Source of the DNA: Cognatundibacterium squillarum
GTDB lineage: Bacteria; Pseudomonadota; Gammaproteobacteria; Burkholderiales; Burkholderiaceae_D
Assembly: GCF_014652435.1 (NCBI RefSeq)
Contig: NZ_BMYU01000004.1
Coordinates: forward strand, 310,001 to 374,000
Reading direction: 5' to 3'
DNA: 64,000 nt
Both the position numbers and the translations under genes were made by a program. The notes beneath the pieces are model-generated. The model was not told the DNA's origin. It did no database searches and saw only the letters and a list, made by a program, of their open reading frames with translations. Of the stretch, positions 13,285 through 47,408 are shown piece by piece (position 1 is the first letter of the stretch; every line of letters starts with the position of its first letter).

Positions 13285-13370
13285 CTGTGCAGAAGTCCGC
13301 ATTTGTGTTTTACGGAGCGCCGGACTTTCTGCCGACGAGCGGGATTTTGCTGTGCAGAACCCCGCATTTA
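13285..13370 (+). repeat. Intergenic 86-bp repeat, copy A
   Basis: One of at least six colinear copies (A-F). Key blocks are CTGTGCAGAAGTCCGCATTT at the left end, a core with CTTTCTGCCGACGA, and CTGTGCAGAACCCCGCATTT at the right end. The two ends are direct repeats 66 bases apart. Aligned by eye to copy C (27030-27115), 65 of 86 positions match with no gaps. It lies between the converging GNAT and ornithine-cyclodeaminase-like genes. Confidence 0.85.
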
Positions 13371-13377
13371 CCCCGGA

Positions 13378-14343
13378 TTACGACTGCTCTGCTCTGTTTT
13401 CCGGCACGCTGAGCTGGCGCTGCACCAGATGCGCTGTCACCAGATCTGCCAGCGCCGTTCCCACCGATTTGAACAAGGTAATCTGCTCAGTGAAACGGCG
13501 TCCGGCGACGCCACGACAGCAAGCCGCCAGATCGGCAAAAATTTCTTCCATGGAAAACCGGCCCTCATCACGCGGAATCAGCAATTCACCGGCTTCCCGC
13601 ACCACGTTCGGGGTGTAATCGACAAATACACAGGATTTGACCACCAGCTCAGTATCGCATTCGCGCCGGTCCGGACTGTGGTTGCCGAGCAGATCGACAT
13701 GGCAGCCAGCCTGCACATCTTCGCCCAGCACCAGCGGCTCGGCGCTGCCGGTAGCGGCAACAATGATTTCTGCCGACCGCACAGCCGCGCGCAGATCGCT
13801 GACAGCCGTGATCTGCAGCGCAGGATGTTCCGCACGGAATGCCGCGACCACCGCTTCGGCTTTTTTCACATCCCTGCCCCAGACCTGAATCTCAGTCAGC
13901 TGACGTACGGAAGCGTGCGCCCGCAGCAAAGGCAGCGCCAGATTGCCGGTGCCCAGCAGCAGCAAACGCGATGCGTCCGGACGCGCCAGCTTTTGTGCTG
14001 CCAGCGCCGATACGGCCGCGGTACGCCAGTAAGTGACGCTGGTGCCATCCACCATCGCCAGCGGTTCACCGTGATCGCGTTTGAACAGCAGAATTTTCGA
14101 AAACAGCGTCGGCAATTGCTGTGCTCCGTTATCAGGAAAATAGGTAAAGGCTTTCACGCCGATCACTTCATCGTTCCACGATGGCAGTACCGCAAACGCA
14201 TCGTGATTATCTTCCTGTTCCGTCAGCGGAAACACTTGCCGCGCCGGCATATGGAAGGTGCCGGCAAATGCGCGGTCCAGCGCCGCAATCAGTACCGGAA
14301 AATTCAGCGACTGATGTACCTGTTCAGCGGAAATCACCTGCAT
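13378..14343 (-). CDS. Ornithine cyclodeaminase / mu-crystallin family protein
   Basis: A 321-residue NAD(P)-dependent protein of the OCD/alanine dehydrogenase-like superfamily. ATG at 14343 is preferred because AGGAG sits five bases upstream; a GTG at 14349 is too close. Family marks are the N-terminal ISAEQVHQSLNFPVLIAAL, KAFTYFPDN, a Rossmann motif LLLLGTGNLALPLLRAH near residue 125, and ADLVTAH at the end. Members act on ornithine, delta-1-pyrroline-2-carboxylate, alanine or related imino acids, so the substrate cannot be fixed. The gene is bracketed by inverted repeat copies A and B. Confidence 0.85.
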   Translation of the reverse strand: MQVISAEQVHQSLNFPVLIAALDRAFAGTFHMPARQVFPLTEQEDNHDAFAVLPSWNDEVIGVKAFTYFPDNGAQQLPTLFSKILLFKRDHGEPLAMVDGTSVTYWRTAAVSALAAQKLARPDASRLLLLGTGNLALPLLRAHASVRQLTEIQVWGRDVKKAEAVVAAFRAEHPALQITAVSDLRAAVRSAEIIVAATGSAEPLVLGEDVQAGCHVDLLGNHSPDRRECDTELVVKSCVFVDYTPNVVREAGELLIPRDEGRFSMEEIFADLAACCRGVAGRRFTEQITLFKSVGTALADLVTAHLVQRQLSVPENRAEQS

Positions 14344-14419
14344 ATGCACTCCTGATATATTTAAAAAATACCGCTATTATCCGGTGTTCTGACTGCCGCC
14401 GACAAGGCAAAAAACCGCT

Positions 14420-14504
14420 GAAATGCGGAGAATGGCACAGTTTTTCATCGACGTCCGCAGAAACAGTGGCGCTCCGGACACCCCCGCTGACGAAGTCTGC
14501 ACAA
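14420..14504 (-). repeat. Intergenic 86-bp repeat, copy B (reverse orientation)
   Basis: Read on the minus strand it starts TTGTGCAGAC, has the core block CGGAGCGCCACTGTTTCTGC, and ends CTGTGCCATTCTCCGCATTT. It is one base shorter than copy A. It lies upstream of the ornithine-cyclodeaminase-like gene and downstream of the Lrp regulator, in the opposite orientation to copy A. Confidence 0.75.
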
Positions 14505-14520
14505 TCAATATCCGATAAGA

Positions 14521-15021
14521 TCAGGCCGCACCCAGCGGTAAGGCGGTGGTGTCTTTGATCTGTTGCAGCGCGAAGCTGGACTTCACATCCAGCACTGCCG
14601 GATGGCGCAGCAGGGTTTCCATCATGAAACGGGAAAAATGGTTCATGTCTTCCACATGCACCCGCAGCAGATAATCCATTTCACCGGTCATCGCATAGCA
14701 AGCCACCACTTCCGCCCATTGCGCCACCGATACCGCAAAATCATCACGCGGCGAACGCGACGCGCCTTTCGATGGCACATCGCTGTGCTTTTCCAGCCGC
14801 ACATTCACATAAGCCAGCAAGCCGAGGCCGATACGCGCCGGTTCCAGCAACGCCACGTATTGCCGGATCACCCCGCTCTCTTCCAGACGCTTGATACGGC
14901 GCAGGCAGGGCGATGGCGACAGATTGACCCGCTCTGCCACTTCCTGATTGGTCAGCCGCCCGTCCGCCTGCAAAATCGCCAGAATTTTGCGGTCAATTTT
15001 ATCCAGTTCAATCTGCGCCAT
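14521..15021 (-). CDS. Lrp/AsnC-family regulator divergent from hpd
   Basis: A 166-residue regulator. The helix-turn-helix is at residues 6-50 (LDKIDRKILAILQADGRLTNQEVAERVNLSPS...LRRIKRLEE) and the ligand-binding RAM domain follows (LAYVNVRLEKH, GEMDYLLRVHVEDMNHFSRFM, DVKSSFALQQIKDTTALPL). There is an extra loop near residues 82-95 (SDVPSKGASRSPRDD), longer than in typical Lrp. ATG at 15021 has GAGGGG upstream. It is transcribed away from hpd with 181 bases between the starts, so control of tyrosine/phenylalanine catabolism is a reasonable inference. Confidence 0.92.
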   Translation of the reverse strand: MAQIELDKIDRKILAILQADGRLTNQEVAERVNLSPSPCLRRIKRLEESGVIRQYVALLEPARIGLGLLAYVNVRLEKHSDVPSKGASRSPRDDFAVSVAQWAEVVACYAMTGEMDYLLRVHVEDMNHFSRFMMETLLRHPAVLDVKSSFALQQIKDTTALPLGAA

Positions 15022-15202
15022 TTTTATCCCCTCATCATCAGAATATGCGCAACATTATTGCGCACATCATGCAATCTTTGGTGAATTTTGGAATTAAATG
15101 GCGTGTTACGCCGACTATACTGTGAGTTTGCGCTGTATCAAACCGCGTACGAATGTGCCGGTTGAAGCAGAATTTCAAACGAATCCCCCACAGGAGACAA
15201 AC

Positions 15203-16318
15203 ATGACATTCCAAACCTGGGAAAACCCGATGGGCACCGACGGCTTCGAATTCGTCGAATACGCCGCACCTGATCCGGCTGCCATGGGCAAGCTGTTCGA
15301 AACGATGGGCTTTGTGGCCATTGCTAAACACCGTACCAAAGATGTCACACTGTACCGTCAGGGTGATGTGAACTTCATCATCAACGCGGAACCGGATTCG
15401 TTTGCACAGAAATTCGCACGCAAACACGGCCCTTGCGTCTGCGCATTTGCTTTCCGCGTCAAAGATGCGAACTTCGCTTACAAACGCGCACTGGAACTGG
15501 GCGCATGGGGCTTCGATAACAAAACCGGCCCGATGGAACTGAATATTCCTGCCATCAAAGGTATCGGCGATTCTCTGATTTATTTCGTTGACCGCTGGAA
15601 AGGCAAAGACGGCGCAGAACCTGGCGCGATCGGCAATATCAGCATTTACGATGCTGACTTCGTGGCGATTCCGGGCGTGGATCCGAATCCGGTTGGTCAC
15701 GGTCTGACCTACATCGACCATCTGACCCACAATGTCTACCGTGGCCGCATGAAAGAATGGGCTGATTTCTACGAAACCCTGTTCAACTTCCGCGAAATCC
15801 GTTACTTCGACATCGCCGGTAAACACACAGGTCTGAAATCCAAAGCGATGACCTCGCCTTGCGGCAAAATCCGCATCCCGATCAATGAATCTTCTGATGA
15901 CAAATCCCAGATCGCAGAATATCTGGATCTGTACCACGGCGAAGGTGTTCAGCATATCGCGATGGGCACAGATGATGTATACAAAACCGTTGCAGGCATG
16001 AAAGCTGACGGCGTCAGCTTCCAGGACACCATCGAAACTTACTACGATCTGGTTGACCGTCGTCTGCCTGGCCACGGTGAAAATCTGGAAGAACTGCGCA
16101 AGCTGCGTATTCTGATCGACGGTAAATCCACCGAAGAAGCGCGTCAGTTACTGCTGCAAATCTTCACCACCACCGTGATTGGTCCGATCTTCTTCGAGAT
16201 CATCCAGCGCAAAGGTGATCAGGGCTTCGGCGAAGGCAATTTCCGCGCTTTGTTTGAATCCATTGAGCTGGATCAAATCCGCCGCGGTGTGCTGAAAGAC
16301 GAAACCACCACAGCGTAA
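15203..16318 (+). CDS. hpd: 4-hydroxyphenylpyruvate dioxygenase
   Basis: A cytosolic Fe(II) enzyme that turns 4-hydroxyphenylpyruvate into homogentisate in tyrosine breakdown. ATG at 15203 follows CAGGAGAC; the longer frame upstream is not conserved in character. The 371 residues form two vicinal-oxygen-chelate halves. Likely iron ligands are His in GLTYIDHLTHN, His in GEGVQHIAMGTDD, and Glu in GPIFFEIIQRKGDQGFGEGNF near the C-terminus, which is the HPPD signature. phhA follows 81 bases later after a terminator. Confidence 0.96.
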   Translation: MTFQTWENPMGTDGFEFVEYAAPDPAAMGKLFETMGFVAIAKHRTKDVTLYRQGDVNFIINAEPDSFAQKFARKHGPCVCAFAFRVKDANFAYKRALELGAWGFDNKTGPMELNIPAIKGIGDSLIYFVDRWKGKDGAEPGAIGNISIYDADFVAIPGVDPNPVGHGLTYIDHLTHNVYRGRMKEWADFYETLFNFREIRYFDIAGKHTGLKSKAMTSPCGKIRIPINESSDDKSQIAEYLDLYHGEGVQHIAMGTDDVYKTVAGMKADGVSFQDTIETYYDLVDRRLPGHGENLEELRKLRILIDGKSTEEARQLLLQIFTTTVIGPIFFEIIQRKGDQGFGEGNFRALFESIELDQIRRGVLKDETTTA

Positions 16319-16342
16319 GCAAAAACGATATGAGACAATCGC

Positions 16343-16380
16343 AAAAGGCTGAACACTCCCGAGTGTCAGCCTTTTGTCTT
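16343..16380 (+). terminator. Terminator between hpd and phhA
   Basis: AAAAGGCTGAACACTC pairs with GAGTGTCAGCCTTTT (one mismatch) around CC, followed by TGTCTT. phhA starts only 20 bases later, so it probably depends on read-through or on a promoter overlapping the hairpin. Confidence 0.8.
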
Positions 16381-16399
16381 AACAAGTATAAATAAAATC

Positions 16400-17281
16400 A
16401 TGGATACCACCGTCAGCAACGAAGACTTTCTGGCCACTGTGGCCGAAAAATCCCACGGCGCCGCTTTACGCGGAGACTACGCAAGCGCCGATGCGCAGTA
16501 TGTTGTGCAACAGGACTGGGCAGCGTATACGGAAGAAGAACATGCGCTGTGGCGCCGTTTGTATCAGCGCCAGATGGCGCTGCTGCCGGGCCGCGCCTGT
16601 AATGAATTTATCGAAGCGCTGCAAGGTTTAAATGCAGCAGATGGCATTCCGCAATTTGAAGCCACCTCGAAAAAACTGGAAGCAGCAACTGGCTGGACCA
16701 TCGTTGCCGTACCGGGCCTTATTCCGGAACTGACCTTCTTCGACCATCTGGCAAACCGCCGTTTCCCGGTGACAGTGTGGCTGCGCAAACCGGAAGAATT
16801 CAATTACATCGTTGAGCCGGATGTGTTCCACGATTTCTTCGGCCATGTACCACTGCTGTTCAACCCTGTATTCGCCGACTATATGCAGCGTTACGGTCAG
16901 GGAGGTTTAAAAGCCATGCAGCTCGGCGGTCTGGATCAGCTGGCACGCCTGTACTGGTACACCGTGGAATTCGGTCTGATCAATACGCCGGAAGGCTTGC
17001 GTATTTACGGCGCTGGCATTCTGTCATCCGGCGGTGAAGTCGAATACTGCCTGACACCGGGTACGACATCGCGCCATATCCATCTGGATATCAAGCGCTG
17101 CCTGAACACGCTGTACAAAATCGACACGTATCAGGAAACCTATTTCGTGATTAACAGTTTCGATGAATTGTTTGAAGGCACCGCACCGGATTTCACGCCC
17201 TATTACGAAGAGCTGAAATCCAAAACACCGTATCCTGCCAATAGTTTGCTGGACGGTGAAACGGAATTGCTGCCGGGCTGA
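16400..17281 (+). CDS. phhA: Phenylalanine 4-monooxygenase
   Basis: Hydroxylates phenylalanine to tyrosine with tetrahydropterin and non-haem iron, feeding the hpd step next door via transamination. The 293-residue monodomain form lacks the eukaryotic regulatory domain. The iron facial triad is visible: His144 and His149 in VFHDFFGHVP and Glu190 in WYTVEFGL. The end of the catalytic core (TYQETYFVINSFDELFE) is present. It ends at a strong terminator shared with the convergent PhyH-family gene. Confidence 0.96.
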   Translation: MDTTVSNEDFLATVAEKSHGAALRGDYASADAQYVVQQDWAAYTEEEHALWRRLYQRQMALLPGRACNEFIEALQGLNAADGIPQFEATSKKLEAATGWTIVAVPGLIPELTFFDHLANRRFPVTVWLRKPEEFNYIVEPDVFHDFFGHVPLLFNPVFADYMQRYGQGGLKAMQLGGLDQLARLYWYTVEFGLINTPEGLRIYGAGILSSGGEVEYCLTPGTTSRHIHLDIKRCLNTLYKIDTYQETYFVINSFDELFEGTAPDFTPYYEELKSKTPYPANSLLDGETELLPG

Positions 17282-17303
17282 TTTCACTTAGTCACCCTGT
17301 CGC

Positions 17304-17341
17304 AAAAAGCCTGCACAATCTTTTTTGTGCAGGCTTTTTTA
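17304..17341. terminator. Bidirectional terminator between phhA and the PhyH gene
   Basis: AAAAAGCCTGCACAA pairs with TTGTGCAGGCTTTTTT. A-rich and T-rich flanks give a T run on both strands, so it can end both converging transcripts. The PhyH-family stop codon lies inside its right edge. Confidence 0.88.
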
Positions 17342-18283
17342 TATCCAGATGTCATGATCTTTATGATCATCCCGGATATAAGTCAGATACTGGACCATAC
17401 GTGGCCTGCTACCGAAGTTCGGTGTTGCACAGTGCGGTAAAGCCTGATGCCAGATCACAAAGTCTCCGGCATTTCCCGGCACAGCTTCAGGCACCAGCGT
17501 TGCAGCGGCGTATTCACGGGGATTCACACCGGCCGGCACTTGCTGCAACCAGTCTGCCAGCACATGATGAAAACCCGGTACACAGTGAAACGCCCCTTCT
17601 TCCGCGCCGCAATCGGTCAGATATAACAAGCCCTGAAATTTCTCCGGCACGGGTTGCGCCAGACTGACATCCCAGTGCAGATCACTGCCGGAAAACGGTG
17701 TCTCCGCGCTTACAGGCGGATTAAAGCTCAGATGATCAATGGTTTTGTAGATCGCCGTGCTGCCATACAATTGTTCATACGCGGCCCGGATACGTCCTGA
17801 CTCACGATTGGTATTGATACGCGGATGGTCATACAAAGGCATCATCAGCCCATGCTTTTTTTGATTTGCCAGATGCCAGCTGGCCGGATCATGCTGCTGT
17901 ATGCCAAGGAAATCACAAATAGCATCGCAGGTTTCAGCGCATGCCTGACGGTCAATCACTGCAGGTAAAACCAGATAACCGTTCTGATGCCAGAAGGCCA
18001 GTTGCTCCGGTGTCAGAAGCCAGTCAGTCCCGGTGGGCTGATCGTTTTCTGTATGCGTATCCAGCACCTGATATCCGGCCTCAGACTGCGCCACCCATTG
18101 CAAAAATTCAGACAGCGAAGGACGTTGTTCCAGCAAATACCGCAACGCAACCGGATGCGCAATATGATGCGCATACAAAGCGCGAACCTGCTGTTCCCAG
18201 CCTGCGTCAGGATCTTCCGCCGTGTTGCCGGAAGGATTGCAAATGCGATGCCAGAGCTGCTCTAACACTGGTTTATCCTGCAT
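17339..18283 (-). CDS. Phytanoyl-CoA dioxygenase (PhyH) family protein
   Basis: A 314-residue Fe(II)/2-oxoglutarate oxygenase-like protein. After an ~85-residue N-terminal region of unknown role comes the double-stranded beta-helix: LAFWHQNGYLVLPAVID (family start), SDLHWDVSL with the His-x-Asp iron ligands, GAFHCVPGFHH, and a distal His region GDFVIWHQALPHCATPNFGSRPR with an Arg that would bind 2-oxoglutarate. PhyH proteins hydroxylate diverse small molecules; the substrate here is unknown. The N-terminal extension is longer than in minimal PhyH enzymes. Confidence 0.85.
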   Translation of the reverse strand: MQDKPVLEQLWHRICNPSGNTAEDPDAGWEQQVRALYAHHIAHPVALRYLLEQRPSLSEFLQWVAQSEAGYQVLDTHTENDQPTGTDWLLTPEQLAFWHQNGYLVLPAVIDRQACAETCDAICDFLGIQQHDPASWHLANQKKHGLMMPLYDHPRINTNRESGRIRAAYEQLYGSTAIYKTIDHLSFNPPVSAETPFSGSDLHWDVSLAQPVPEKFQGLLYLTDCGAEEGAFHCVPGFHHVLADWLQQVPAGVNPREYAAATLVPEAVPGNAGDFVIWHQALPHCATPNFGSRPRMVQYLTYIRDDHKDHDIWI

Positions 18284-18367
18284 GGAACCCCCCGGCTGAT
18301 ATCAATCTGATCAGTGTAAATTGACGGGGTTCTGTGAACAAGTAAATTAAGATTAGCTCACAGACAT

Positions 18368-18412
18368 ACAACAAAATGCCGGACGACCTGCAATCGGTCA
18401 TCCGGCATTCTG
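18368..18412 (-). terminator. Terminator after the DUF2087 gene
   Basis: On the minus strand AATGCCGGATGACC pairs with GGTCGTCCGGCATT (one mismatch) and is followed by TTGTTG. It lies 35 bases past the stop at 18447. Confidence 0.7.
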
Positions 18413-18446
18413 CAAGCCTGTACTGCGTTTTTTTCGGTTTCAGAAC

Positions 18447-19271
18447 TCAGCGGAGTTTGCGGTAAATTCCGTTCTCACGCTGCATCAGACCATGCACCAC
18501 CAGTTCACGGCGCAGTGTCGCCACATCATCGTGATAACGGCTTAATACCTGATTCAGTGCTATTTCAGAATAAGGCATATCCATGCTGATCTGTGCCGCC
18601 AGCCAGCGCAGAATCACCAGTCGTTTTTTTCTTTGCTGCGGGATTTTTTGTATGCGTTCGTCTGCGACAAAGTTTTTCAGAATCTGCGCTGAGGTCTGCT
18701 CATCACTGTGCAAAGCCTGCTGGTCTGCCTGCCAGTTCCACTGGCTTTCCCAGTGTTCCAGCCGCGTTTGCTGCAGACGCTGTTGCGCCAGCGTCTGCCA
18801 TGCCTGACTGCCATAAGCTGCCACCAGATCATACTGAATTGCAGACCATACCGCATCATCGTCTGTCATCCCCAGATGTTTCACAAACGAAGCTTCTGCC
18901 AGCACAAACTGCCGTGCATACGGCAACAAAAACATACCGGGTTGTAAAGCTTGCTGGTGGCGGGCTTCTGCATAGCCGGAAAACCATAGATTAGTAAAAC
19001 CGGCAGCATGTTCTCCGTACCAGAACGCCCCCATATCACCGGGGTCAGTGGCTTGGCCGGATAATGCACAGCGAGCATGCTCCCAGTCACGAAAGCCTGT
19101 GTCAGCGGCAATCAGGTTCAGGCACTGGCTGTGGCTGGGTTCTGTTTCCGGCGACCAGTTGCGACGGCGACATAATATCCGCACGCGTTTAATGCTGGCA
19201 CTGTGCTGACGTTGCAATTGCTTTTGCAATACACGTGCACGGGTTTTGATTTCTTCAGTGAGTACGTTCAT
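18447..19271 (-). CDS. DUF2087-domain protein with a basic N-terminal region
   Basis: A 274-residue protein I cannot assign to a function. The last ~75 residues (RKKRLVILRWLAAQI ... YSEIALNQVLSRYHDDVATLRRELVVHGLMQRENGIYRKL) match the DUF2087 pattern, a winged-helix-like module often found in transcription regulators. The N-terminal 60 residues are basic and contain SHSQCLNLIAADTGFRDWEHAR, resembling the N-terminal motif of some proteins annotated as glyoxalase-superfamily. The middle (90-190) is rich in Trp, Gln and Tyr. ATG at 19271 follows GGAG. It stands alone and has its own terminator. Confidence 0.7.
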   Translation of the reverse strand: MNVLTEEIKTRARVLQKQLQRQHSASIKRVRILCRRRNWSPETEPSHSQCLNLIAADTGFRDWEHARCALSGQATDPGDMGAFWYGEHAAGFTNLWFSGYAEARHQQALQPGMFLLPYARQFVLAEASFVKHLGMTDDDAVWSAIQYDLVAAYGSQAWQTLAQQRLQQTRLEHWESQWNWQADQQALHSDEQTSAQILKNFVADERIQKIPQQRKKRLVILRWLAAQISMDMPYSEIALNQVLSRYHDDVATLRRELVVHGLMQRENGIYRKLR

Positions 19272-19522
19272 GTAATTTCTCCGTGAACGGCACGGACATG
19301 ATACGTCAGAAAACAGGATAAAGACTGAGGCAACATGACCGCTCCGATTCGTTATGCTGACGACCCGCTACGTCAAACGAATACTGGCTGATCACATCGG
19401 AAAGATGGCAGACGCACATCTGTGGTCTGCAAAGACAGCAGGGTGAGATCCTCTTTTGCGGGCAGGCACCCCTACGCACCTGTCCCGCTATTCTAGGTTG
19501 ATTGCACAGAACGCGCAACAGC

Positions 19523-20389
19523 TCAGTAAAAGCCTGCTTCGCCTTCCGGACGTGTCTTGAAACGTTTATGCGCCCAAAAATATTCTGCCGGTGCGAAACG
19601 AATCTGGCTTTCAATAAACGCATTCATCTGACGGGTGGCCTCGGTCAGGCTGGCATCGCCCGGATAATTTTCCCACGCCGGATGGAAACGTACCTGCCAG
19701 CCCTGGTAATCCGGCAGATAAGTGGCGGTGACCGGAATGACTTTCGCACCGGAAGTTGCCACCAGACGCGGCAACGCAATCAGGGTCGCGGCAGGCACAC
19801 CGAAAAACGGAATAAATTCTGCATTCTTAATACCGAAATCCATATCCGGCAGCATGAAGTAAGGCAAGCCCTGCTGCATGGCGCGCAGTATCGGCTTAAT
19901 GCCTTCATTACGTGAAAACAATTGCACCGGACGAAAACGTGAACGCCCTTTACGCAGCGCACGGTCAAACACTTTATTTTTTTGCTCGGAATAAATCGAA
20001 CACAGCGAAGATTCCAGCATGGTCGCCACACCCGCGACTTCCAGACACACAAAATGCGGGCACATGATCACGACCGGACCGGCCTTAATGTCAGCCAGCG
20101 GTACGCCGGGTTCGACATGAATCAGTTTTTTCAGACGCGACTCCGGTGCCCACCACAGAATGCCGCGTTCAAACACGCTGCGGGCATAGTAACGAAAATG
20201 CTGCTTAGCAAGTTGGTAGCGTTCCGCTTCGCTGAGTTCCGGCATGCAAAGTCGCAGATTGGTCAGCGTAATGCGGCGGCGTTTCTTAATCACATAAAAT
20301 AAGAAACTACCGACCGTTTCACCGAAACGCCCCAGCAGTGGCAGCGGCAACCAGTGCAGCAACCACATAATCAATAACATCAGTCTCAT
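19523..20389 (-). CDS. lpxL: Lipid A biosynthesis lauroyl/acyl transferase (LpxL/HtrB family), second copy
   Basis: An inner-membrane late acyltransferase of lipid A synthesis. The 288-residue protein has an N-terminal membrane helix, then the catalytic HX4E motif in CPHFVCLEVAG, plus RRRITLTNLRLCMPELS and a C-terminal PAEYFWAHKRFKTRPEGE, all characteristic of HtrB/MsbB proteins. Its ATG overlaps the preceding acyltransferase gene by four bases (ATGA), so the pair is translationally coupled. Which acyl chain each adds cannot be told from sequence. Confidence 0.9.
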   Translation of the reverse strand: MRLMLLIMWLLHWLPLPLLGRFGETVGSFLFYVIKKRRRITLTNLRLCMPELSEAERYQLAKQHFRYYARSVFERGILWWAPESRLKKLIHVEPGVPLADIKAGPVVIMCPHFVCLEVAGVATMLESSLCSIYSEQKNKVFDRALRKGRSRFRPVQLFSRNEGIKPILRAMQQGLPYFMLPDMDFGIKNAEFIPFFGVPAATLIALPRLVATSGAKVIPVTATYLPDYQGWQVRFHPAWENYPGDASLTEATRQMNAFIESQIRFAPAEYFWAHKRFKTRPEGEAGFY

Positions 20390-26834: not shown

Positions 26835-27402
26835 GCTTAACTCCTTAATTAGTGTTATTTAGTCAATCCGACACTATACCGCGCCACCGGCTTGCTGCTG
26901 TTCTGCATTCGCAATGCAAAACACATATTTCTGCCGGACACCCGCTGCCACTGCCCGGATACAACGCTTTCGTCCGGCTAGTGCTCCGGTGCAACAGATT
27001 CAGTGATCCGGTGCCGGCAAGGAGCAGCACTATGCAGCTATCCGCATTCATCATTTTCGGAGAGCCAAACTTTCTGCCGACGACAGCGCAACTGCTGTGC
27101 AGAACACCGCATTTGAGGCTAAAAATGCCTGTTTTCCGGCTGCAACAGACGGTCGGGCAGACTATTCACAATTCTGCGCAAAAACGAAATTTTTGACGGC
27201 AGCAGGGACGGAAAACCAGCGCTTCCCTGTTTTTACGGCATTTCCCGAACTTCAGTGTTTTTAAGGCATCGAAAACCTTGCAGCCAGACTGCCTGAATGC
27301 GAATATCGCTTTCCCGGATACCTGCAGGCTTGCCCGCATCAGCGTGTGCTGCATGCGCCGTACAAAGCTGCTGACAATATCACCAGACCCGAGAGGAGAA
27401 GA
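26835..27402. other. 568-bp divergent intergenic region
   Basis: It lies between the divergent cupin and prolyl oligopeptidase genes. Repeat copy C occupies 27030-27115. The remainder shows no convincing gene; short in-frame ORFs here have no recognisable features. Promoters for both flanking genes are presumably here but none stands out. Confidence 0.5.
27030..27115 (+). repeat. Intergenic 86-bp repeat, copy C
   Basis: Left end CTATGCAGCTATCCGCATTC, core ACTTTCTGCCGACGACAGCG, right end CTGTGCAGAACACCGCATTT. It is exactly 86 bases long and colinear with copies A, E and F. It lies in the divergent cupin/prolyl oligopeptidase region. Confidence 0.85.
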
Positions 27403-37280: not shown

Positions 37281-37374
37281 GTTTCCACCAGTTGTTTTCA
37301 GCGGATCTGCCGCAGAATTTGCCATCGCTGCACACTGAATAATCCGGGTGAAAAACGCGTTTCCGGCGCGGACT

Positions 37375-37459
37375 CTGTGCAAATATCGTCACATGCGTTT
37401 TTGCGAAGCCCGCACTTTCTGCCGACGACAAGCGTATCGCTGTGCTGAACTCCGCATTC
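37375..37459 (+). repeat. Intergenic 86-bp repeat, copy D
   Basis: Left end CTGTGCAAATATCGTCAC, core CGCACTTTCTGCCGACGACA, right end CTGTGCTGAACTCCGCATTC. It needs at least one small gap to align with the 86-base copies. It lies between converging genes. Confidence 0.78.
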
Positions 37460-37574
37460 TGGCCGTTTTTCGGGCTTTGCAGGGCTTTTCAGGCCTCTTC
37501 AGGAGTTTTCAGATTGTTTTCCTGGTCATGTATCTCTGAAGCGATTTCAGGGACTGACCAGTCAGGCGGATAAT

Positions 37575-38613: not shown

Positions 38614-38647
38614 ATAAAAAACCCCGCAGCCACAGACTGCGGGGTCA
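38614..38647 (-). terminator. Terminator after the porin gene
   Basis: ACCCCGCAG pairs with CTGCGGGGT and the minus strand continues TTTTTATGAC. It lies about 22 bases past the stop at 38668. Confidence 0.9.
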
Positions 38648-38667
38648 GAACATTCTTTCAGAAATGC

Positions 38668-39828: not shown

Positions 39829-39857
39829 AGTAATCCTCCTGACAATGCAGCTGATGG

Positions 39858-40268: not shown

Positions 40269-40381
40269 ACAGCGCCTCCCCGCCTGACGACAACAGCGAT
40301 GACCGATAATAATTTTCCGCACCACTGAACGTCGCAGAATCAGGATGCGGGAACGCTTGAATGCTCAGAATAGATTATCAG

Positions 40382-40660
40382 CATTTATTTCATCAATAGC
40401 CGCGAATGCGAGGTGCCGGGAAGCAGTGCGCGGCTGCTTAGAAGGAAAAACGGATTGCAAAGCAGTCCGCCTGCGAAGCGACTTCCACATAGTTGCGGAA
40501 GGATGCACTCAGCAGCACAGACTGGAGCCTGTGCAAGCGACGCAACAAAGCATTGTGCCCGGCACCTCCGTTTCCCGGTGGTTTTTCCTTTAGCCCGCAT
40601 CGTGATGCTGCTCGCGTTCCATGCTGGCTGCGCGCCAGCCAGCATTGCGTACAAATCTGC
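40382..40660. mobile_element. Decayed relative of the MITE at 26128, with an inserted segment
   Basis: Positions 40382-40432 (CATTTATTTCATCAATAGCC then GCGAGGTGCCGGGAAGCAGT) match the reverse complement of the right end of the intact element. Positions 40537-40577 (GACGCAACAAAGCATTGTGC, then CCCGGCACCTCCGTTTCCCG) match the next part. In the intact element these two blocks are directly adjacent; here about 105 bases lie between them. The second terminal repeat is not recognisable. The right boundary is approximate. Confidence 0.65.
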
Positions 40661-40887
40661 CCCAATGATATCTCTCAATAAATTCCGATTGACAGAGCCC
40701 CCCTGCACCAACCATCCCCTGAGTTCAATATAGATACAAACACGAACCAACTCCAAGACAAGCCCCATTTCCTGACAAAAAACAACAATTCATTCACACC
40801 GATGCCGCATTGTTGTTTTACTGTTCATGCGATGATACGCACGGATGCCCAAATGTCGTTACGCTGCGCCAGCAAATTGCCGCAAAA

Positions 40888-40920
40888 GAAAAAGCACCCG
40901 TAGCGGGTGCTTTTTCTTTT
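40888..40920. terminator. Terminator after metF
   Basis: AAAAGCACCCG pairs with CGGGTGCTTTT around TAG, with T-rich sequence following on both strands. It lies about 45 bases past the metF stop and terminates the leftward ahcY-holin-metF operon. Confidence 0.88.
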
Positions 40921-40964
40921 GTTACATCGACGCTGATGTTCGCTCAGTGAAAGCTGCTTCTTAC

Positions 40965-41801
40965 TTACTTGCCGGCCGTCAGACGATTCCAGATTTCGGT
41001 CGTGGCGATTGTCTGATTCAGCGAATAAAAATGCAGACCCGGTGCACCGCCTGCCAGCAGACGTTCACACATGTCGGTGACAACATCAAGACCGAAGGCT
41101 TTGATCGACGCAGTATCATCACCGAAGCTTTGCAGCTTCAGACGTACCCAGCGCGGAATCTCTGCGCCGCACATGTCGGAGAAACGCAGCAATTGTGAGC
41201 TGCTGGTGATCGGCATAATGCCCGGCACCACCGGCACATCCACGCCCTGCTTCTGCACTTCATCGACAAACTGGAAGTAAGCGTCGGCGTTGTAGAAATA
41301 CTGGGTAATTGCAGAGTTGGCACCGGCTTTGACTTTGCGTACAAAATTGTTCACGTCGTCTTGTGGCGAGCGCGCCTGCGGATGCATTTCCGGATATGCC
41401 GCCACTTCGATATGGAACCAGTCGCCGGTTTCGGCACGGATAAATTCCACCAGTTCATTTGCGTAGCGGAATTCTCCGCCCATACCGTAACCACTCGGGA
41501 AATCGCCGCGCAGTGCAACAACGCGACGAATACCGAAATTCTGGTACTGACGCAGAATCGCACCGATCGATTCTTTCGTACCGCCGATACAGGATAAATG
41601 CGGTGCAGCCTGCATCCCTTCACGCTGGATTTCGACCACGGTATCCAGTGTGCCTTGTTGTGTCGTACCGCCTGCACCAAAAGTCACAGAAAAATATTGC
41701 GGCTTCAGTTGCGCCAGCTTTGCACGTGTCACGCGCAGTTTTTCCGCACCTTCTGCTGTCTTTGGCGGGAAAAATTCAATACTGAAATTCGGGCTAGTCA
41801 T
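40965..41801 (-). CDS. metF: 5,10-methylenetetrahydrofolate reductase
   Basis: A FAD enzyme that makes 5-methyl-THF for methionine synthesis. The 278-residue TIM barrel has FSIEFFPPKTAEG at the start (catalytic Glu), SVTFGAGGTTQQGT, ALRGDFPSG (folate/FAD region), and ITQYFYNADAYFQFVD near 185. It starts with a four-base overlap (ATGA) with the holin-like gene and is the last gene of the SAH-controlled operon. Confidence 0.96.
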   Translation of the reverse strand: MTSPNFSIEFFPPKTAEGAEKLRVTRAKLAQLKPQYFSVTFGAGGTTQQGTLDTVVEIQREGMQAAPHLSCIGGTKESIGAILRQYQNFGIRRVVALRGDFPSGYGMGGEFRYANELVEFIRAETGDWFHIEVAAYPEMHPQARSPQDDVNNFVRKVKAGANSAITQYFYNADAYFQFVDEVQKQGVDVPVVPGIMPITSSSQLLRFSDMCGAEIPRWVRLKLQSFGDDTASIKAFGLDVVTDMCERLLAGGAPGLHFYSLNQTIATTEIWNRLTAGK

Positions 41802-42142
41802 GATTGCTCAAAAATTAAAGTCGACAATGTCCAGGAGATCACGCTGTATAACAATGCGCCGCCGGTAGCAGACCAGAATCCGGTGACATGGAAACCATCC
41901 ACCATATTCGCCACACCCCAGAACAGCAGGCCGTTAATCACGAAAATAAATAAACCCATGCTGAGCATGGTGACCGGCAAAGTCAGCAAGACCAGCAATG
42001 GCCGGATCACGGCATTCACCAGTCCCAGCACCAATGCCACCACCAGCGCGGTACCGAGTCCGTCGATTTGTACGGAATGCATCAGATACGGAATCGCCAG
42101 TAAGGCAATGGCATTGATCAGCCAGTTGGCTAACAAACGCAT
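41798..42142 (-). CDS. Phage-holin-4-like inner membrane protein
   Basis: A 114-residue protein with four predicted membrane helices (about 4-22, 28-50, 57-80 and 88-110). It belongs to the family called phage holin 4-like (PF04020 type; NAVIRPLLVLLTLPVT is typical). Despite the name there is no phage context. It is conserved between ahcY and metF in many betaproteobacteria, and its role is unknown. The ribosome site AGGAG lies directly after the ahcY terminator. Confidence 0.88.
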   Translation of the reverse strand: MRLLANWLINAIALLAIPYLMHSVQIDGLGTALVVALVLGLVNAVIRPLLVLLTLPVTMLSMGLFIFVINGLLFWGVANMVDGFHVTGFWSATGGALLYSVISWTLSTLIFEQS

Positions 42143-42157
42143 AACATCTCCTGAAAA

Positions 42158-42195
42158 AAACTCCCCGGTCTGACGAGCATGGCGGGGAGTTTTGC
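42158..42195 (-). terminator. Intra-operon terminator between ahcY and the holin-like gene
   Basis: On the minus strand ACTCCCCG pairs with CGGGGAGT around a ~18-base loop, followed by TTTTTT and then CAGGAG, the ribosome site of the next gene. It begins four bases after the ahcY stop. It probably sets a lower level for metF than for ahcY. Confidence 0.82.
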
Positions 42196-42198
42196 AGA

Positions 42199-43617
42199 TT
42201 AATAACGGTAGTGTTCAGGCTTGTACGGGCCTTCTTTTTTCACGCCGATATAGTTCGCCTGCTCTTCGGTCAGTTCAGTCAGCTGTGCGTTGAAGCGGGT
42301 CAGCTGCAGACGGGCTACTTTTTCATCCAGATGCTTCGGCAGCGTGTACACGCCGACCGGATAGTCTGCATTACGCTGGAACAGTTCGATCTGCGCCAGT
42401 GTCTGATTCGCGAAGCTGGAGCTCATCACATACGATGGGTGACCGGTTGCACAACCCAGATTTACCAGACGGCCTTCTGCCAGCAGAATGATACGTTTGC
42501 CGTTCGGGAAGATTACGTGATCGACTTGTGGTTTGATGTTTTCCCATGTGTACTGCTTCAGGGAAGCCACGTCGATTTCATTATCGAAGTGACCGATGTT
42601 GCAAACGATGGCCTGATCTTTCATGCGCAGCATGTTGTCATGTGTGATCACGTGGTAGTTACCGGTCGTGGTCACGAAGATGTCGCCGTGTTCTGCTGCG
42701 TAATCCATGGTTACCACGCGGTAACCTTCCATTGCTGCCTGCAGTGCGCAGATAGGATCGATTTCTGTAACCCAGACTTGCGCTGCCAGCGCGCGCAGAG
42801 CCTGTGCAGAACCCTTACCGACGTCACCGTAACCGCAAACCACAGCAACTTTACCGGCAACCATCACGTCAGTCGCACGTTTGATACCGTCAACCAGCGA
42901 TTCGCGGCAACCGTACAGATTATCGAATTTCGATTTGGTCACGGAATCGTTCACGTTGATTGCAGGGAACGCCAGTTTGCCGTCTTTATGCATTTGATAC
43001 AGACGATGCACGCCGGTAGTGGTTTCTTCGGTCACGCCTTTAATTTCAGCCAGACGTTTGGAATACCATTGCGGATCTTTGGCCAGATGTGCGCGGATAG
43101 AATTGAACAGGCAGACTTCTTCTTCGGAACCCGGTTTGTCCAGTACGGACAGATCGGTTTCAGCACGGGTACCCAGATGCAGCAACAGCGTTGCGTCGCC
43201 GCCGTCATCCAGAATCATGTTGGAGTAACCGCCGTCAGTCCATTCAAAAATGCGGTGGGTGAATTCCCAGTATTCATCCAGACTTTCGCCTTTGAATGCG
43301 AATACCGGTGTGCCGCCGGCAGCAATTGCTGCTGCGGCATGGTCTTGTGTGGAGTAAATATTGCAGGAAGCCCAGCGAACCTGCGCGCCCAGTGCGATCA
43401 GTGTTTCAATCAGCACAGCGGTCTGAATCGTCATGTGCAGGGAACCGGTGATACGCGCACCTTTCAGTGGCTGGGATGCAGCGAATTCTTTACGAATTGC
43501 CATCAGGCCCGGCATTTCGGTTTCAGCGATGCGAATTTCTTTACGGCCCCAGTCAGCCAGACTCAGGTCGGCAACCAGAAAATCCTGTTGGGTTTGTTGT
43601 GTTGTGGTGGCGTTCAT
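42199..43617 (-). CDS. ahcY: Adenosylhomocysteinase (SAH hydrolase)
   Basis: An NAD-dependent enzyme that splits S-adenosylhomocysteine to adenosine and homocysteine, relieving inhibition of methyltransferases. ATG at 43617 is preferred over GTG at 43620; AAGGAGGG lies upstream. The 472-residue protein has [17 protein letters not shown]-like start, the signature [16 protein letters not shown] (Rossmann loop), [27 protein letters not shown], and C-terminal [13 protein letters not shown] with the NAD-binding Lys-Tyr. An SAH riboswitch lies in its leader. Confidence 0.97.
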
Positions 43618-43645
43618 CACGCCCTCCTTTCTGAAATGAAAAAAG

Positions 43646-43785
43646 TAACGTGAGCGCAGTTGAATTCGGTGATATCCGGAAAACAGATCAAGTGAGCCTC
43701 GGCCACATCAGAACTGCAGAAAACGGATCAGAGAAGTTTTTCCAAGCCTGGCAGGGCTGACCTGTCGCAACGCTCCTTGGAAAGA
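43646..43785 (-). promoter_or_regulatory. S-adenosylhomocysteine (SAH) riboswitch
   Basis: The ahcY leader, read on the minus strand, has CCAAGGAGCGTTGCGAC, then GCCAGGCTTGG closing the P1 stem (CCAAG with CTTGG), and about 84 bases later TGCGCTCACG. GAGCG can pair with CGCTC to form the expected pseudoknot. This matches the known SAH riboswitch consensus (RF01057 type), which turns ahcY on when SAH is high. The long insertion before the pseudoknot strand fits the variable P4 region. A TATACT -10 candidate lies just upstream near 43790. Confidence 0.85.
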
Positions 43786-43860
43786 CTGAAGTATAAACCA
43801 GCCTGCCGATTTCTGCACCTGTAGCGCATTGCGGTGCCGCGCTTTATTCTCCGTTAAGTT

Positions 43861-44337
43861 TCAGGCAACACCGTTATCCGGCAACAGTGATTTACCCATG
43901 CAAAGCGACAGATTGTTTTCTGTGTATTTTCCGAAGGCTGTAATCGCGGCATAGCCATGCTTACGGTAAAACGCGATGGCGCGCGGATTGGTATGCCGTA
44001 CTGCCAGACAAATCTGCTGATAACCCCATTGCAGTGCCTGCTGCTCCAGCCAGCCCAGTACTTGTGCTGCCACGCCGGTTTCACCCGGACGTGCATACAT
44101 GCGCTTAAGCTCCGCAACCTGCATACCGGCGGGGCGCAGGGCTGCACAAGCGAGTGGCATACCCTGCGGATTTCGCGCCACAACGAAGCAGGCACCGTCC
44201 TGCTGCACATCGCTGGCGCAAAAACTGCTCTGACCACTGTCACCGGTCAGCAGCACCAGCCGCGCCGATAACTCTGCCAGCAACAAACGTGCATCCGGAT
44301 GATCAGGCGATTCGGCTTGTATCAGAACGGGCAACAT
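43861..44337 (-). CDS. GNAT-family N-acetyltransferase
   Basis: A 158-residue acetyltransferase. ATG at 44337 (MLPVLIQAESPDHPDARLLL) was chosen because the longer ORF extends back through a terminator hairpin into apt. The acetyl-CoA-binding region is ELKRMYARPGETGVAAQVLGWLEQQA near 85-110, followed by CLAVRHTNPRAIAFYRKHGYAAI, typical of the GNAT C-terminal half. Substrate unknown. Confidence 0.82.
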   Translation of the reverse strand: MLPVLIQAESPDHPDARLLLAELSARLVLLTGDSGQSSFCASDVQQDGACFVVARNPQGMPLACAALRPAGMQVAELKRMYARPGETGVAAQVLGWLEQQALQWGYQQICLAVRHTNPRAIAFYRKHGYAAITAFGKYTENNLSLCMGKSLLPDNGVA

Positions 44338-44354
44338 AAACGGACTCCGGAAAA

Positions 44355-44385
44355 GAAAAACGGATGAGGGGAACTCATCCGTTTT
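44355..44385 (-). terminator. Terminator between apt and the GNAT gene
   Basis: AAAACGGATGAG pairs with CTCATCCGTTTT around a 5-base loop, and the minus strand continues TTCTTTTCC. It ends the apt transcript; the GNAT gene starts 18 bases later. Confidence 0.88.
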
Positions 44386-44431
44386 ACGCAAAATCAGTGC
44401 CAGCCTGACAAGGCCGCTGACGGTTTGCTGA

Positions 44432-44974
44432 TCAGTGACCGTCGAAATTGCAGATAGTGAAAAGTGGCAAGCCGCTGTCTTTGATGATGCGCGAACCGCC
44501 CAGTTCAGGCAGATCGACAATCACGGCACCTTCCACGACTTCCGCGCCCAGACGTTCCAGCAGTTTTTTGCCAGCCATCATCGTGCCGCCGGTCGCGATC
44601 AGATCGTCGATCAGTACAACGCGGTCACCTTTTTTGCACGCATCCGCATGCAGTTCCACCGTTGCGCTGCCGTATTCCAGTTCGTATTCTTCCGATACCG
44701 TGTGGAAAGGCAGTTTGCCTTTTTTACGAATCGGTACGAAACCCAGATTCAGTTCATAGGCCAGCACGGAGCCGATAATGAAGCCGCGCGCATCCAGACC
44801 GGCGATTACGTCGATTTTTTCGTCCATGTAGCGATGTACGAACATATCGATCAGAACACGGAATACCTTCGGGTTTTGCAGTAACGGGGTGATGTCACGG
44901 AACATCACGCCCTGCTGCGGCCAGTCAGGTACGGTACGGATATGCTGTTTGATGTACTCGGAGGGATTTAACAT
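44432..44974 (-). CDS. apt: Adenine phosphoribosyltransferase
   Basis: Salvages adenine to AMP using PRPP. The 180-residue length is typical. Motifs are [36 protein letters not shown], and the PRPP-binding loop [14 protein letters not shown] near residues 117-130. It lies next to ahcY's neighbourhood; SAH breakdown yields adenosine rather than adenine, so the functional link is loose. Confidence 0.96.
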
Positions 44975-45008
44975 CGCCTGAGGTCCTTCAGAATTTTACG
45001 ATAACCCG

Positions 45009-46991
45009 CTATTTTAGCAGCCGGAGCTCTGCTCTTGCGACTGCTTCCGAGGTTCCCCTCAAAACAATCACATCACCGGCCTGTAAACCTTGCTCTGCCT
45101 GCAACTCCAGACGGCGGCTGCCGCGGCGCATACTGTGAATTTCCGCTTCAGTATCTTCCAGTGCCAGTTCCGCCAGCGTCTTGCCGACCGCCGTGGCACG
45201 TTCAGTCAGCACCACCGTATGCAAACGAATCTGCATCGCATCCGGACTGTCAGACGCATCGCTGGCACCGTGGAAGAAGCCGCGCAGGGATTCGTAACGC
45301 GCATCGCGTGCTGCCTGTACGCGGTGCACCACGCGGCGCAAAGGCACGCCAAGCAGCACCAGTGCATGCGACGCCAGCATCAGGCTGCCTTCCATCAGCT
45401 CCGGCACCACTTCGGTCGCACCGGCGGCGCGCAGTTTTTCCAGATCAACATCATCGTGGCTGCGCACAATCACCGGCAGACTCGGATTCAGTTCATTCAC
45501 AAAATGCAAAATACGCAAGGCAGAAGCCGTGCTGGTATAGGTAATGACCAGCGCCGACGCGCGGTTGATACCGGCGGCCACCAGACTTTCACGCCGCGCC
45601 GCGTCGCCATACGACACATTCGCACCACCAGTCTGTGCTTCGCGCACGCGGTCGGGGTCCAGATCCAGTGCGTGGTAATCGATATTTTCTTCAGACAGCA
45701 AACGCGCCAGATTCTGTCCGCTGCGGCCAAAACCGGCAATGATCACATGCTTGCGGGTCGACATGGTGCGTGCTGCGATCTGCGTCAGCGCCAGCGATTG
45801 CATCATCCATTCATTGGAAGACAGCTTCATCACAATCGCATCCGATTTTGCCAGAATGAAAGGTGATATCAGCATCGACAACACCATCGACGCCAGAATC
45901 AGCTGCAGCAATTCTTTGTCGATCAGGGACAAGGCGCCGGCCTGATTCAGCAACACAAAGCCGAACTCACCGGCCTGCGCCAGCGCCAGCCCGGTACGCA
46001 GCGCGACGCTAGTGGTGCTGCCGAACAAACGCGCCAGTCCGGCAATCAGCACAAATTTCAGCAGCAAAGGCACCACGAACAGGAACAGCACGATGCCTGC
46101 ATTGCTGACCACCAGCTTCAGATTCAGCAGCATCCCGACAGTAATGAAGAACAAACCGAGCAGCACATCGCGGAAAGGTTTAATGTCTTCTTCCACCTGA
46201 TGCCGGTATTCAGTTTCAGAGATCAGCATGCCGGCAACAAACGCGCCCAGCGCCATCGACAGACCGGCGCGGTCCGTCAGCCATGCCGCACCGAGCGTCA
46301 CCAGCAACAGGTTCAGCATGAATAATTCCTGCGAACGCCGTTTCACGACGATGCGAAACCAGGTTCGCATCAAACGCTGACCGATCACCAGCAACACAAA
46401 CAGCACCAGCACCGCTTTGCCACCGGCCCATGCCAGCGTCTGTACGATATCGCCGGAATGCGCCGCCATCGCCGGCACCAGAATCAGCAGCGGCACCACG
46501 GCCAGATCCTGAAACAGCAGGATGGCGATAATCTGACGGCCGTGCAGGCTTTCCAGCTCCAGCCGCTCTGTGAGCATTTTGGACACAATCGCGGTGGATG
46601 ACATCGCCAGCGCACCACCCAGCGCAAACGACGCCTGCCAGCTGATCGCAAACCACTGCGGCAGCCAGTAACTGACAATCGCACCACCGGCCAGCGCCGC
46701 CACGATCGTCACCACTACCTGCGCCAGCCCCAGCCCGAACACTTGTTTACGCATGGTCATCAGCTTGGGCAGCGAGAATTCCAGTCCGATCGAAAACATC
46801 AGGAACACCACGCCGAATTCCGCCATTTCATGCGTGACTTCGCTGTCTTCGGCAAAACCCAGTCCGTGCGGACCGATCAGAACACCGACCACCAGATAGC
46901 CCAGTATCGGTGGCAATTGCAGCATACGAAAAGCCACCACACCAAGCACGGCGGCGGTCAGCAGAGATAAGGTCGTGTCGAGTGCATTCAT
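45009..46991 (-). CDS. CPA2-family monovalent cation:proton antiporter (KefB/KefC-like)
   Basis: A 660-residue inner-membrane protein. The N-terminal ~385 residues form a sodium/hydrogen-exchanger domain with about 12 helices (start LLTAAVLGVVAFRMLQLPPILGYLVVG). A TrkA-N nucleotide-binding domain follows (HVIIAGFGRSGQNLARLL, about 415-530), and then a TrkA-C domain (about 565-655; LEDTEAEIHSMRRG). This is the layout of Kef potassium efflux systems, though the partner subunit KefF/G is absent here. No ribosome site is obvious before the start. The ion specificity is inferred from the family. Confidence 0.9.
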   Translation of the reverse strand: MNALDTTLSLLTAAVLGVVAFRMLQLPPILGYLVVGVLIGPHGLGFAEDSEVTHEMAEFGVVFLMFSIGLEFSLPKLMTMRKQVFGLGLAQVVVTIVAALAGGAIVSYWLPQWFAISWQASFALGGALAMSSTAIVSKMLTERLELESLHGRQIIAILLFQDLAVVPLLILVPAMAAHSGDIVQTLAWAGGKAVLVLFVLLVIGQRLMRTWFRIVVKRRSQELFMLNLLLVTLGAAWLTDRAGLSMALGAFVAGMLISETEYRHQVEEDIKPFRDVLLGLFFITVGMLLNLKLVVSNAGIVLFLFVVPLLLKFVLIAGLARLFGSTTSVALRTGLALAQAGEFGFVLLNQAGALSLIDKELLQLILASMVLSMLISPFILAKSDAIVMKLSSNEWMMQSLALTQIAARTMSTRKHVIIAGFGRSGQNLARLLSEENIDYHALDLDPDRVREAQTGGANVSYGDAARRESLVAAGINRASALVITYTSTASALRILHFVNELNPSLPVIVRSHDDVDLEKLRAAGATEVVPELMEGSLMLASHALVLLGVPLRRVVHRVQAARDARYESLRGFFHGASDASDSPDAMQIRLHTVVLTERATAVGKTLAELALEDTEAEIHSMRRGSRRLELQAEQGLQAGDVIVLRGTSEAVARAELRLLK

Positions 46992-47055
46992 GCAATTATT
47001 ATTGCCGATTTGCTGCGCTTGCTGGCTGTTTTTATCAATATGCGAACCAACAGCA

Positions 47056-47141
47056 TGTGATGGTTTTCCGCATCAGGCACTTCCGGAGAGCCGCGCAAAC
47101 TCTGGGACAACGGCAAATGACTGTGCCGGATGCCGCATTTC
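47056..47141 (+). repeat. Intergenic 86-bp repeat, copy E
   Basis: Shared blocks are CTTCCGGAGAGCCGCGCAAA in the core and CTGTGCCGGATGCCGCATTT at the right end. The left 10 bases have drifted (TGTGATGGTT). It is exactly 86 bases in register with A, C and F, and the match continues past the right end (CAGGGATTTTTT). Confidence 0.75.
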
Positions 47142-47322
47142 AGGGATTTTTTGCCCTTTTGAATGCCGTCTGCGGCATTCCGGTGCACCGCTGTCAGTTA
47201 CGTGGCGGGTACGCTGAAAGAATGAATCTGCCGGAAGACGAAGCGACCGGAACGCTGCGTCACCCTCCTCCCCTTAGTCAACGATACCGGAGCCGGTAAT
47301 CCTTCGGAAAATGTAACTTCAT

Positions 47323-47408
47323 CTGTGCAGCTATCCGCACAGGCATACTCCGGAGAACCGCGCAAACTCTGAGACACCGCCATATAGCTATGCAGAACAC
47401 CGCATTTC
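47323..47408 (+). repeat. Intergenic 86-bp repeat, copy F
   Basis: Left end CTGTGCAGCTATCCGCA, core CCGGAGAACCGCGCAAACTC, right end CTATGCAGAACACCGCATTT. It is 86 bases and colinear with copies A, C and E. It is closest to copy E in the core and to copy C at the ends. Confidence 0.82.

Follow-up and report, generated by a model that had tools for sequence, protein, structure and literature searches.

The window analysed here, a stretch of 64,000 nucleotides from Cognatundibacterium squillarum (contig NZ_BMYU01000004.1, positions 310,001 to 374,000; G000:C4:310001-374000 in our numbering of genomes and contigs), carries six copies of a short repeat belonging to a real intergenic family that is matched to no known one, and that is similar to the bacterial interspersed mosaic elements (BIME) by behaviour, not by structure. 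The element consists of a left, a centre and a right block in strict register, with a main length class of 92 bp, and is followed by a right arm of A/T tracts in helical phase; its copies are found above all between convergent genes. The strict three-block register, the spacing in helical turns and the phased arm argue for a complex of proteins on DNA that is bent or wrapped, which we consider probable, and the placement points to the ends of transcription. Accordingly, we favour, at a probability of about 0.4, the reading that the element is a topological docking site at transcription-unit ends for a wrapping or bending protein, be it gyrase or a partner.

The column profile of the 112 copies of 92 bp has a sharp left edge, beyond which no column holds more than 0.17 bits, and a gradual right boundary. 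The left block reads TRTGCAGnnnTC(CG|GT)CAT, the centre block lies around CTTTCTGCCGACGAC and the right block reads CTRTGCnGAAnnCCGCATTT; these blocks are conserved, and the spacer columns between them are nearly free. The left block occurs in two forms that differ at columns 14-15, TCGTCAT (GT in 59 of 112 copies) and TCCGCAT (CG in 42 of 112), unlike the right block, which is almost invariably CCGCATTT. An earlier note on this DNA, made from the letters alone, had described the repeat as built on a direct repeat of its own ends, and the outer blocks do align as direct repeats, at a spacing of 65 bp instead of the 66 bp given there. Its suggestion of a 66-bp unit present 1.3 times has been abandoned, as the middle is a distinct conserved third block. 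The six window copies share the block order described, falling into one common register on alignment; the ends, being direct repeats, form no terminal inverted repeats, and no long palindrome of the repetitive extragenic palindromic (REP) or enterobacterial repetitive intergenic consensus (ERIC) type has been found, both as proposed.

A second class of 112-114 bp, comprising 17 copies, has its outer blocks 86 bp apart, and both of its spacers are longer. When the blocks were scanned with free spacers, 118 copies passed, against 0 in the reversed control, and the changes of the two spacers were (0,0) in 104 copies, (+11,+10) in 10, (+10,+10) in 3 and (0,-1) in 1. As only these four combinations occur, the centre stays midway and each side lengthens by about one helical turn together with the other. 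In related genomes of the genus, the one long-class copy of G001 has outer blocks exactly 86 bp apart, and the diverged 92-bp copies of G011 and G062 align without gaps. Block pairs at 65 and 86 bp have been counted 36 and 3 times, respectively, in a 400-kb stretch of the host, and not at all in 400-kb stretches of G001 and of a further relative, G013.

The T-rich continuation past the right end, seen already by eye, is real and on the family average also periodic, with A/T peaks past column 82 at about 83, 94, 104, 114 and 124 and GGC-rich troughs between them, until the signal fades. This arm extends about 45 bp past the right edge with a period of about 10.25 bp. Over 50 bp, the best period of its A/T content is 10.25 bp at an amplitude of 0.21, compared with a maximum of 0.05 in 1000 intergenic draws, and the 17 long copies give 9.75 bp at an amplitude of 0.22 (control maximum 0.12); the left flank reaches 0.09 at 11.25 bp, which is weak but over its control maximum of 0.05. 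The power of single sequences at 10.25 bp amounts to 3.35 for right arms and 1.43 for left flanks, as opposed to 1.29 for other intergenic windows and 1.10 for copy-free convergent gaps, and within the element the 10.25-bp period is present in columns 40-90, but changes to 8.25-9 bp further left. Columns 92-95 are all T in 53 of 112 copies and all A in 11, where independence would give 25 and 0.3. Whole tracts thus swap strand, a feature that fits DNA shape more readily than RNA. For the arms of the window copies, the claim of periodicity is carried by the family average.

The extent of the family has been judged from searches in the host genome. A profile built from the six window copies finds exactly those six above threshold in the window, at E-values of 2e-23 to 2e-19, which are not independent because the profile was trained on the same copies; BLAST with copy C alone has therefore been taken as the independent test, and it has returned 39 further places in the genome at E ≤ 7.6e-16 (best 40 of 331 candidates scored). 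The trained profile has detected 133 copies at E ≤ 1e-3 in the 1.26 of 4.19 Mb read (contig C1 in full, contig C2 up to 200 kb, and the window), compared with a best E-value of 1.2 in the reversed-sequence control. Extrapolation yields about 440 copies per 4.19-Mb genome (4,185,104 bases), and the count from an earlier profile search of the whole host, in which the best 103 of 3041 candidates were scored, is a lower bound. Well over a hundred copies thus stand where the earlier note had hoped for tens, and the outcome that it would have held against a family, a few copies at random-level similarity, has not been seen.

The placement of the copies relative to genes has been determined with our own hexamer gene caller in place of a standard annotation. 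By these calls, 128 of the 132 placeable copies are intergenic and 4 overlap a called gene, so that the earlier statement of a position between genes for all copies is true for the six in the window and for nearly the whole family. At least one copy is present in 66 of 160 convergent gaps, 48 of 685 tandem gaps and 11 of 159 divergent gaps. About half of the copies stand alone between convergent genes, and divergent gaps are largely avoided. Since a copy lengthens its own gap, the comparison has been repeated with the copy length subtracted; when only gaps of 60 bp or more are counted, a copy is still present in 62 of 117 convergent ones and in 58 of the 502 remaining gaps (odds ratio 8.6, p 1e-20). 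The 81 convergent gaps of at least 150 bp comprise 63 with one copy, 18 with none and 0 with two or more, compared with a Poisson spread of about 29, 37 and 14, respectively. The Poisson probability that two-copy convergent gaps are absent is 2e-5 over all 160 gaps; for the 81 gaps of 150 bp or more it falls to 8e-8, though a gap could owe its place in this class partly to its copy. Two copies in one gap have been found in two tandem gaps and one divergent gap, the latter holding window copies E and F. Copies in tandem gaps lie at a median of 114 bp past the upstream stop and 236 bp ahead of the next start. A bias with replication or GC skew is not evident by eye on contig C1.

The expectation of copies in related Oxalobacteraceae has come true in part: three relatives have 3-4 convincing copies each, and the expansion is found in this species only among the genomes searched. 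In these profile searches, the best 98-107 candidates per genome were scored. Model R1, applied to 43 genomes of the genus including the host, has given 4 matches in G001 (one weak), 2 in G011 and 3 in G062, and G005 and G063 have each given one match that is weak and partial; the broader model R2, which covered 40 of the 42 other genus genomes, has given 4, 3 and 5 (one weak) in G001, G011 and G062 and none in the remaining 37 of the 40. BLAST with a single copy against 60 genomes from 25 families, the host among them, has hit the host only, although this search misses diverged copies. Plasmids and phages have shown no match by BLAST with one copy, and viral and genome contigs, in which records near the host may be left out, no match to an exact pattern.

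De novo repeat detection in 400 kb of each genome has revealed a cluster of 44 gaps in the host and no intergenic cluster above 6 gaps in G001 or G013, and the median convergent gap over the same lengths is 238 bp in the host, 77 bp in G001 and 118 bp in G013. Three syntenic convergent gaps that carry a copy in the host measure 286, 369 and 238 bp versus 75, 96 and 6 bp in G001, and nine syntenic gaps free of copies do not differ (medians 79 and 71). The length added in the copy-bearing syntenic gaps exceeds the element itself, and by eye the empty gaps of relatives do not align base-exactly to the copy-bearing ones. The shorter gaps and the lack of a comparable repeat in G001 and G013 indicate that the expansion took place in the host lineage, as an addition. 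Its source was an old, rare family, as a copy is present in four species, the host, G001, G011 and G062, beside a gene that we take, from its reading frame, to be typA/BipA-like (host C1 728427-728518; loci L267, L268 and L051), the copies in G011 and G062 being strongly diverged. Next to this locus, a segment aligns between G001 and the host over 534 bases (74%) and between G011 and the host over only 241 (73%), although on the typA side G001 and G011 are 99% identical. An exchange of the neighbouring segment is suggested by this pattern.

Within the host, the core identity of a copy to its nearest relative has a median of 0.84 and a maximum of 0.978, at an all-pair mean of 0.70 (112 copies). 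The nearest relative lies within 6 kb for 16 of 112 copies, where 0.9 are expected and 1000 permutations reach at most 6; 15 of these 16 neighbours are on the same strand, as are 37 of all 48 pairs under 6 kb. Twelve adjacent pairs of the same strand and length, at least 80% alike and less than 4 kb apart, have been examined for the extent of their homology, which covers the element plus 0-16 bp in 10 and further flank in 2. This argues mostly for element-only copying, or for gene conversion between neighbouring direct repeats; segmental duplication has been rejected as the source of close pairs on the same count. A copy stands on either side of 24 genes, where 15.5 would be expected, and these genes have lower coding scores (p 0.012). 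Among 10 of these 24 genes, a Pfam scan has identified one Tdi1-type immunity gene of a type VI secretion system and one HD-CE ATPase gene, and no transposase, the search for transposases having otherwise been limited to Y1_Tnp. These two genes, for an HD-CE/HATPase protein of low GC content (0.40) and for the Tdi1-type immunity protein, look foreign and lie on host contig C1 (L173 4203-7229, L166 10369-10953). A variable region with toxin-like genes, next to a GH44 gene, lies between two copies in G001, G011 and G062 (L075 7577-9667, L076 7896-9684 and L221/L223), and G062 departs from G001 and G011 at the left edge of one copy. This region contains a pretoxin HINT-domain frame in G001 and different frames in G011, as well as a second short repeat, around GCAACAGATGCATTCC, at L075 7668-7713, 8458-8503 and 9443-9496.

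In the favoured explanation, the element would serve, as double-stranded DNA, for the assembly of a protein complex that bends or wraps about 130-140 bp, and the wrapped unit would consist of the two like-oriented outer blocks, the centre block midway between them and the phased right arm. Such sites, placed singly in convergent junctions and less often at other transcription-unit ends, would have a topological job from which the cell would benefit: holding DNA gyrase, or a wrapping or bending partner, where converging transcription piles up positive supercoils. A precedent would be the role that BIME-2 is thought to play in E. coli. We regard as doubtful the wider proposal that most convergent junctions with room in this species hold one non-palindromic, sequence-specific wrapping site, and that these sites, made up of direct-repeat protein sites, a centre and a phased arm, form a new topological class expanded through one genome under selection to separate or relax converging transcription.

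Several points weigh against the topological explanation. Many bases of the element are near-invariant, and its periodicity is clear in the right arm alone, the left flank giving a weak signal, whereas the gyrase motif is degenerate and two-sided; a sequence-specific protein would therefore likely be needed besides or instead of gyrase. The 20-21 bp added in the long class would not obviously be tolerated by a fixed gyrase footprint. Each length class may have arisen once, in which case the helical-turn argument rests on few events. Pairwise differences fall mainly in the variable columns, both in the three pairs at least 95% identical (0.7% of constrained and 10% of variable columns) and in pairs below 86% identity (7% and 42%), a contrast with some circularity in it, since these copies had also served to class the columns. 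In the 40-bp arm, identity reaches 36% for nearest pairs and 34% for all pairs, and of the five pairs with an identity of 92% or more, two have the initial 10-30 bp of the arm in common and three have little in common. The arm is thus mostly constrained in phase, or else a property of the landing sites, and it could reflect target preference. Relatives without comparable elements and with short convergent gaps argue that the function is not generally needed in the genus, and a lineage-specific expansion fits a selfish element equally well.

Such a selfish element, non-autonomous and mobile, is a quite possible alternative: the blocks would bind a transposase or recombinase, insertion would have taken place beside bendable DNA at gene ends, and copies would survive where they do least harm. 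This would account for 133 copies in 30% of one genome versus 3-5 matches in each of three relatives, for the sharp left edge, for the element-only homology of most adjacent same-strand pairs, for an arm that is mostly not inherited with the core, and for the far longer gaps at all three copy-bearing syntenic junctions next to nine alike without a copy. It fits less well with the lack of terminal inverted repeats and of an enzyme in the search limited to Y1_Tnp, or with 112 copies of which no pair exceeds 97.8% core identity; exactly one copy per convergent gap would require target immunity, and near-invariant columns have been kept although the copies average only 70% identity. Unlikely in our view is a recombination or attachment site for gene cassettes, in which pairs of copies flank exchangeable cargo, as might be read from the excess and the lower coding scores of genes flanked on both sides, the Tdi1-type immunity and HD-CE ATPase genes among the ten scanned, the mostly same-strand pairs under 6 kb, and the toxin-like region between two copies in G001, G011 and G062, where G062 diverges at a copy's left edge. 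Gene orientation inside the pairs is mixed, however, most copies do not have a gene flanked on both sides, and the G062 junction is a single case. The topological, selfish and cassette readings overlap, and a selfish element may have been recruited.

A transcribed RNA element, such as a riboswitch, small RNA, Rho loading site or terminator, is highly improbable. The copy does precede the first terminator-like hairpin on 31 of the 132 gene sides of copy-bearing convergent gaps, and such hairpins are missing on 45 of these 132 sides; for comparison, they are missing on 28 of the 130 sides of the 65 convergent gaps of 40 bp or more that hold no copy. Copy A, moreover, folds better than 197 of 200 shuffles. 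The single-strand folds of the six window copies extend from z -2.6 for A to +2.1 for D, some of those other than A being a little better than shuffles and some worse, with no common structure, and RNAalifold on 37 copies has found a hairpin of 4 pairs at the right block only, with no compensatory change. The covariation that the earlier note had hoped for has thus failed to appear, and RNA structure as the common basis has been rejected on the missing conserved fold and the inconsistent single folds. A Rho-loading site has been discarded as well, on the lack of orientation bias (copies in tandem gaps lie 30 times in the sense of the upstream gene and 20 times opposite to it) and on the A/T tracts swapped between strands. 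Rfam has given no match at the copies in the window scan, in agreement with the earlier impression of an unfamiliar family, and permissive Rfam scans of E, F and four other loci have returned sub-threshold hits only, none over a core; the glycine-riboswitch-like look of E and F has found no support there. A micro-ORF (open reading frame) has been set aside: the six frames are open in 33 to 106 of the 133 copies, lengths and centre blocks vary among copies, and the column profile has no three-base pattern by eye.

Among known systems, the REP/BIME repeats of enterobacteria (BIME-2 with gyrase, BIME-1/RIB with integration host factor, IHF) are alike in having hundreds of intergenic copies at 3' ends and in convergent gaps, and the family, too, has more than 100 intergenic copies at such places. 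PMC6379681 and the preprint PMC12393610 describe the E. coli gyrase motif as 130 bp long with 47-bp flanks of 10.75-bp periodic GC content, and gyrase as gathering downstream of transcription units and in BIME-2. According to PMC1525189, REPs often sit between convergent genes, and PMC2817692 states that BIMEs bind IHF or gyrase and gives a definition of REPs that includes a GT(A/G)G head. By analogy, binding of gyrase or of a bending protein is what we propose for the new family. Its structure differs: in place of palindromic hairpin units, for which the RNAalifold alignment showed no covariation, it has outer direct repeats, three blocks in fixed register and a phased arm on one side; no conserved GT(A/G)G tetranucleotide stands at either end of the 112-copy profile. 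Mobilisation by a REP-associated tyrosine transposase (RAYT) is not supported: the genome has one Y1_Tnp gene, and its 3.3-kb locus is free of copies, unlike a RAYT gene flanked by its repeats. This only RAYT-like gene of the host lies at G000:C11:113908-114231.

The strong gyrase sites of phage Mu (SGS), pSC101 and pBR322 resemble the element in the overall size of about 130-140 bp reached with the phased right arm; they are single sites with a degenerate motif, whereas the family is repeated and has many near-invariant bases, and gyrase binding is here a prediction. Miniature inverted-repeat transposable elements (MITEs; Correia elements, RUP) are likewise short, non-coding, dispersed and lineage-specific, but the family has no terminal inverted repeats, no related transposase has been found (only Y1_Tnp was sought), and no convergent gap in the 1.26 Mb covered holds it twice. 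Resolvase res sites and integron attC sites combine several protein sites in a fixed helical arrangement, or are gene-flanking repeats, and attC has inverted simple sites for the IntI integrase; the family differs by its many dispersed copies and by outer blocks that are direct and not inverted, and no recombinase has been identified, though no search for integrases was made. Open-licence papers have yielded no title describing this family, which does not prove that none exists.

The six copies in the window were found where the earlier note had placed them, with boundaries off by 1-2 bases. Copy A (13284-13375, plus strand, 92-bp class) lies between two convergent genes, one acetyltransferase-like and the other ornithine cyclodeaminase-like, and copy B (14415-14505, minus strand), with 91 bp one base short, is flanked by two minus-strand genes. 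Copy C (27029-27120, plus strand, 92-bp class) occupies a divergent gap upstream of a prolyl oligopeptidase-like gene, and copy D (37374-37465, plus strand, 92-bp class) is flanked by the convergent genes of an Lrp/AsnC regulator and of an ODP-family protein with the metallo-beta-lactamase fold. Copies E (47055-47146, plus strand, 92-bp class) and F (47322-47413, plus strand), the latter 175 bp after the former, share a divergent gap and a centre block that is absent from all others among the 133 copies; local copying or conversion has probably produced one of the two from the other. The window is atypical in that only A and D lie in convergent gaps. By eye, A or T tracts recur about every 10 bp in the right arm of C (27121-27165) and are clear in those of D (37466-37510), E (47147-47191) and F (47414-47458), all on the plus strand, and they are weak after A and B. 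Elsewhere in the window, an S-adenosylhomocysteine (SAH) riboswitch has been recognised at 43645-43784 on the minus strand (RF01057, 52 bits versus a gathering score of 37) and a tRNA gene at 3937-4010 on the plus strand (RF00005, 64 bits). A window protein with SIS and CBS domains, presumably KdsD-like, has its nearest named relatives in Undibacterium species at 78% identity, on which the host has been assigned to Undibacterium.

It has long been asked whether intergenic repeats of the REP kind serve the cell or themselves, and this family offers a clean case, with never more than one copy in a convergent gap of the 1.26 Mb covered, two length classes that differ by about one helical turn on each side, and relatives without the expansion; as it is non-palindromic, no hairpin confounds the result. 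Binding of gyrase or a bending protein to the copies would make it possible to test directly what part convergent transcription has in the placement of topological sites; if there is no such binding, the family would be an unusually disciplined selfish element.

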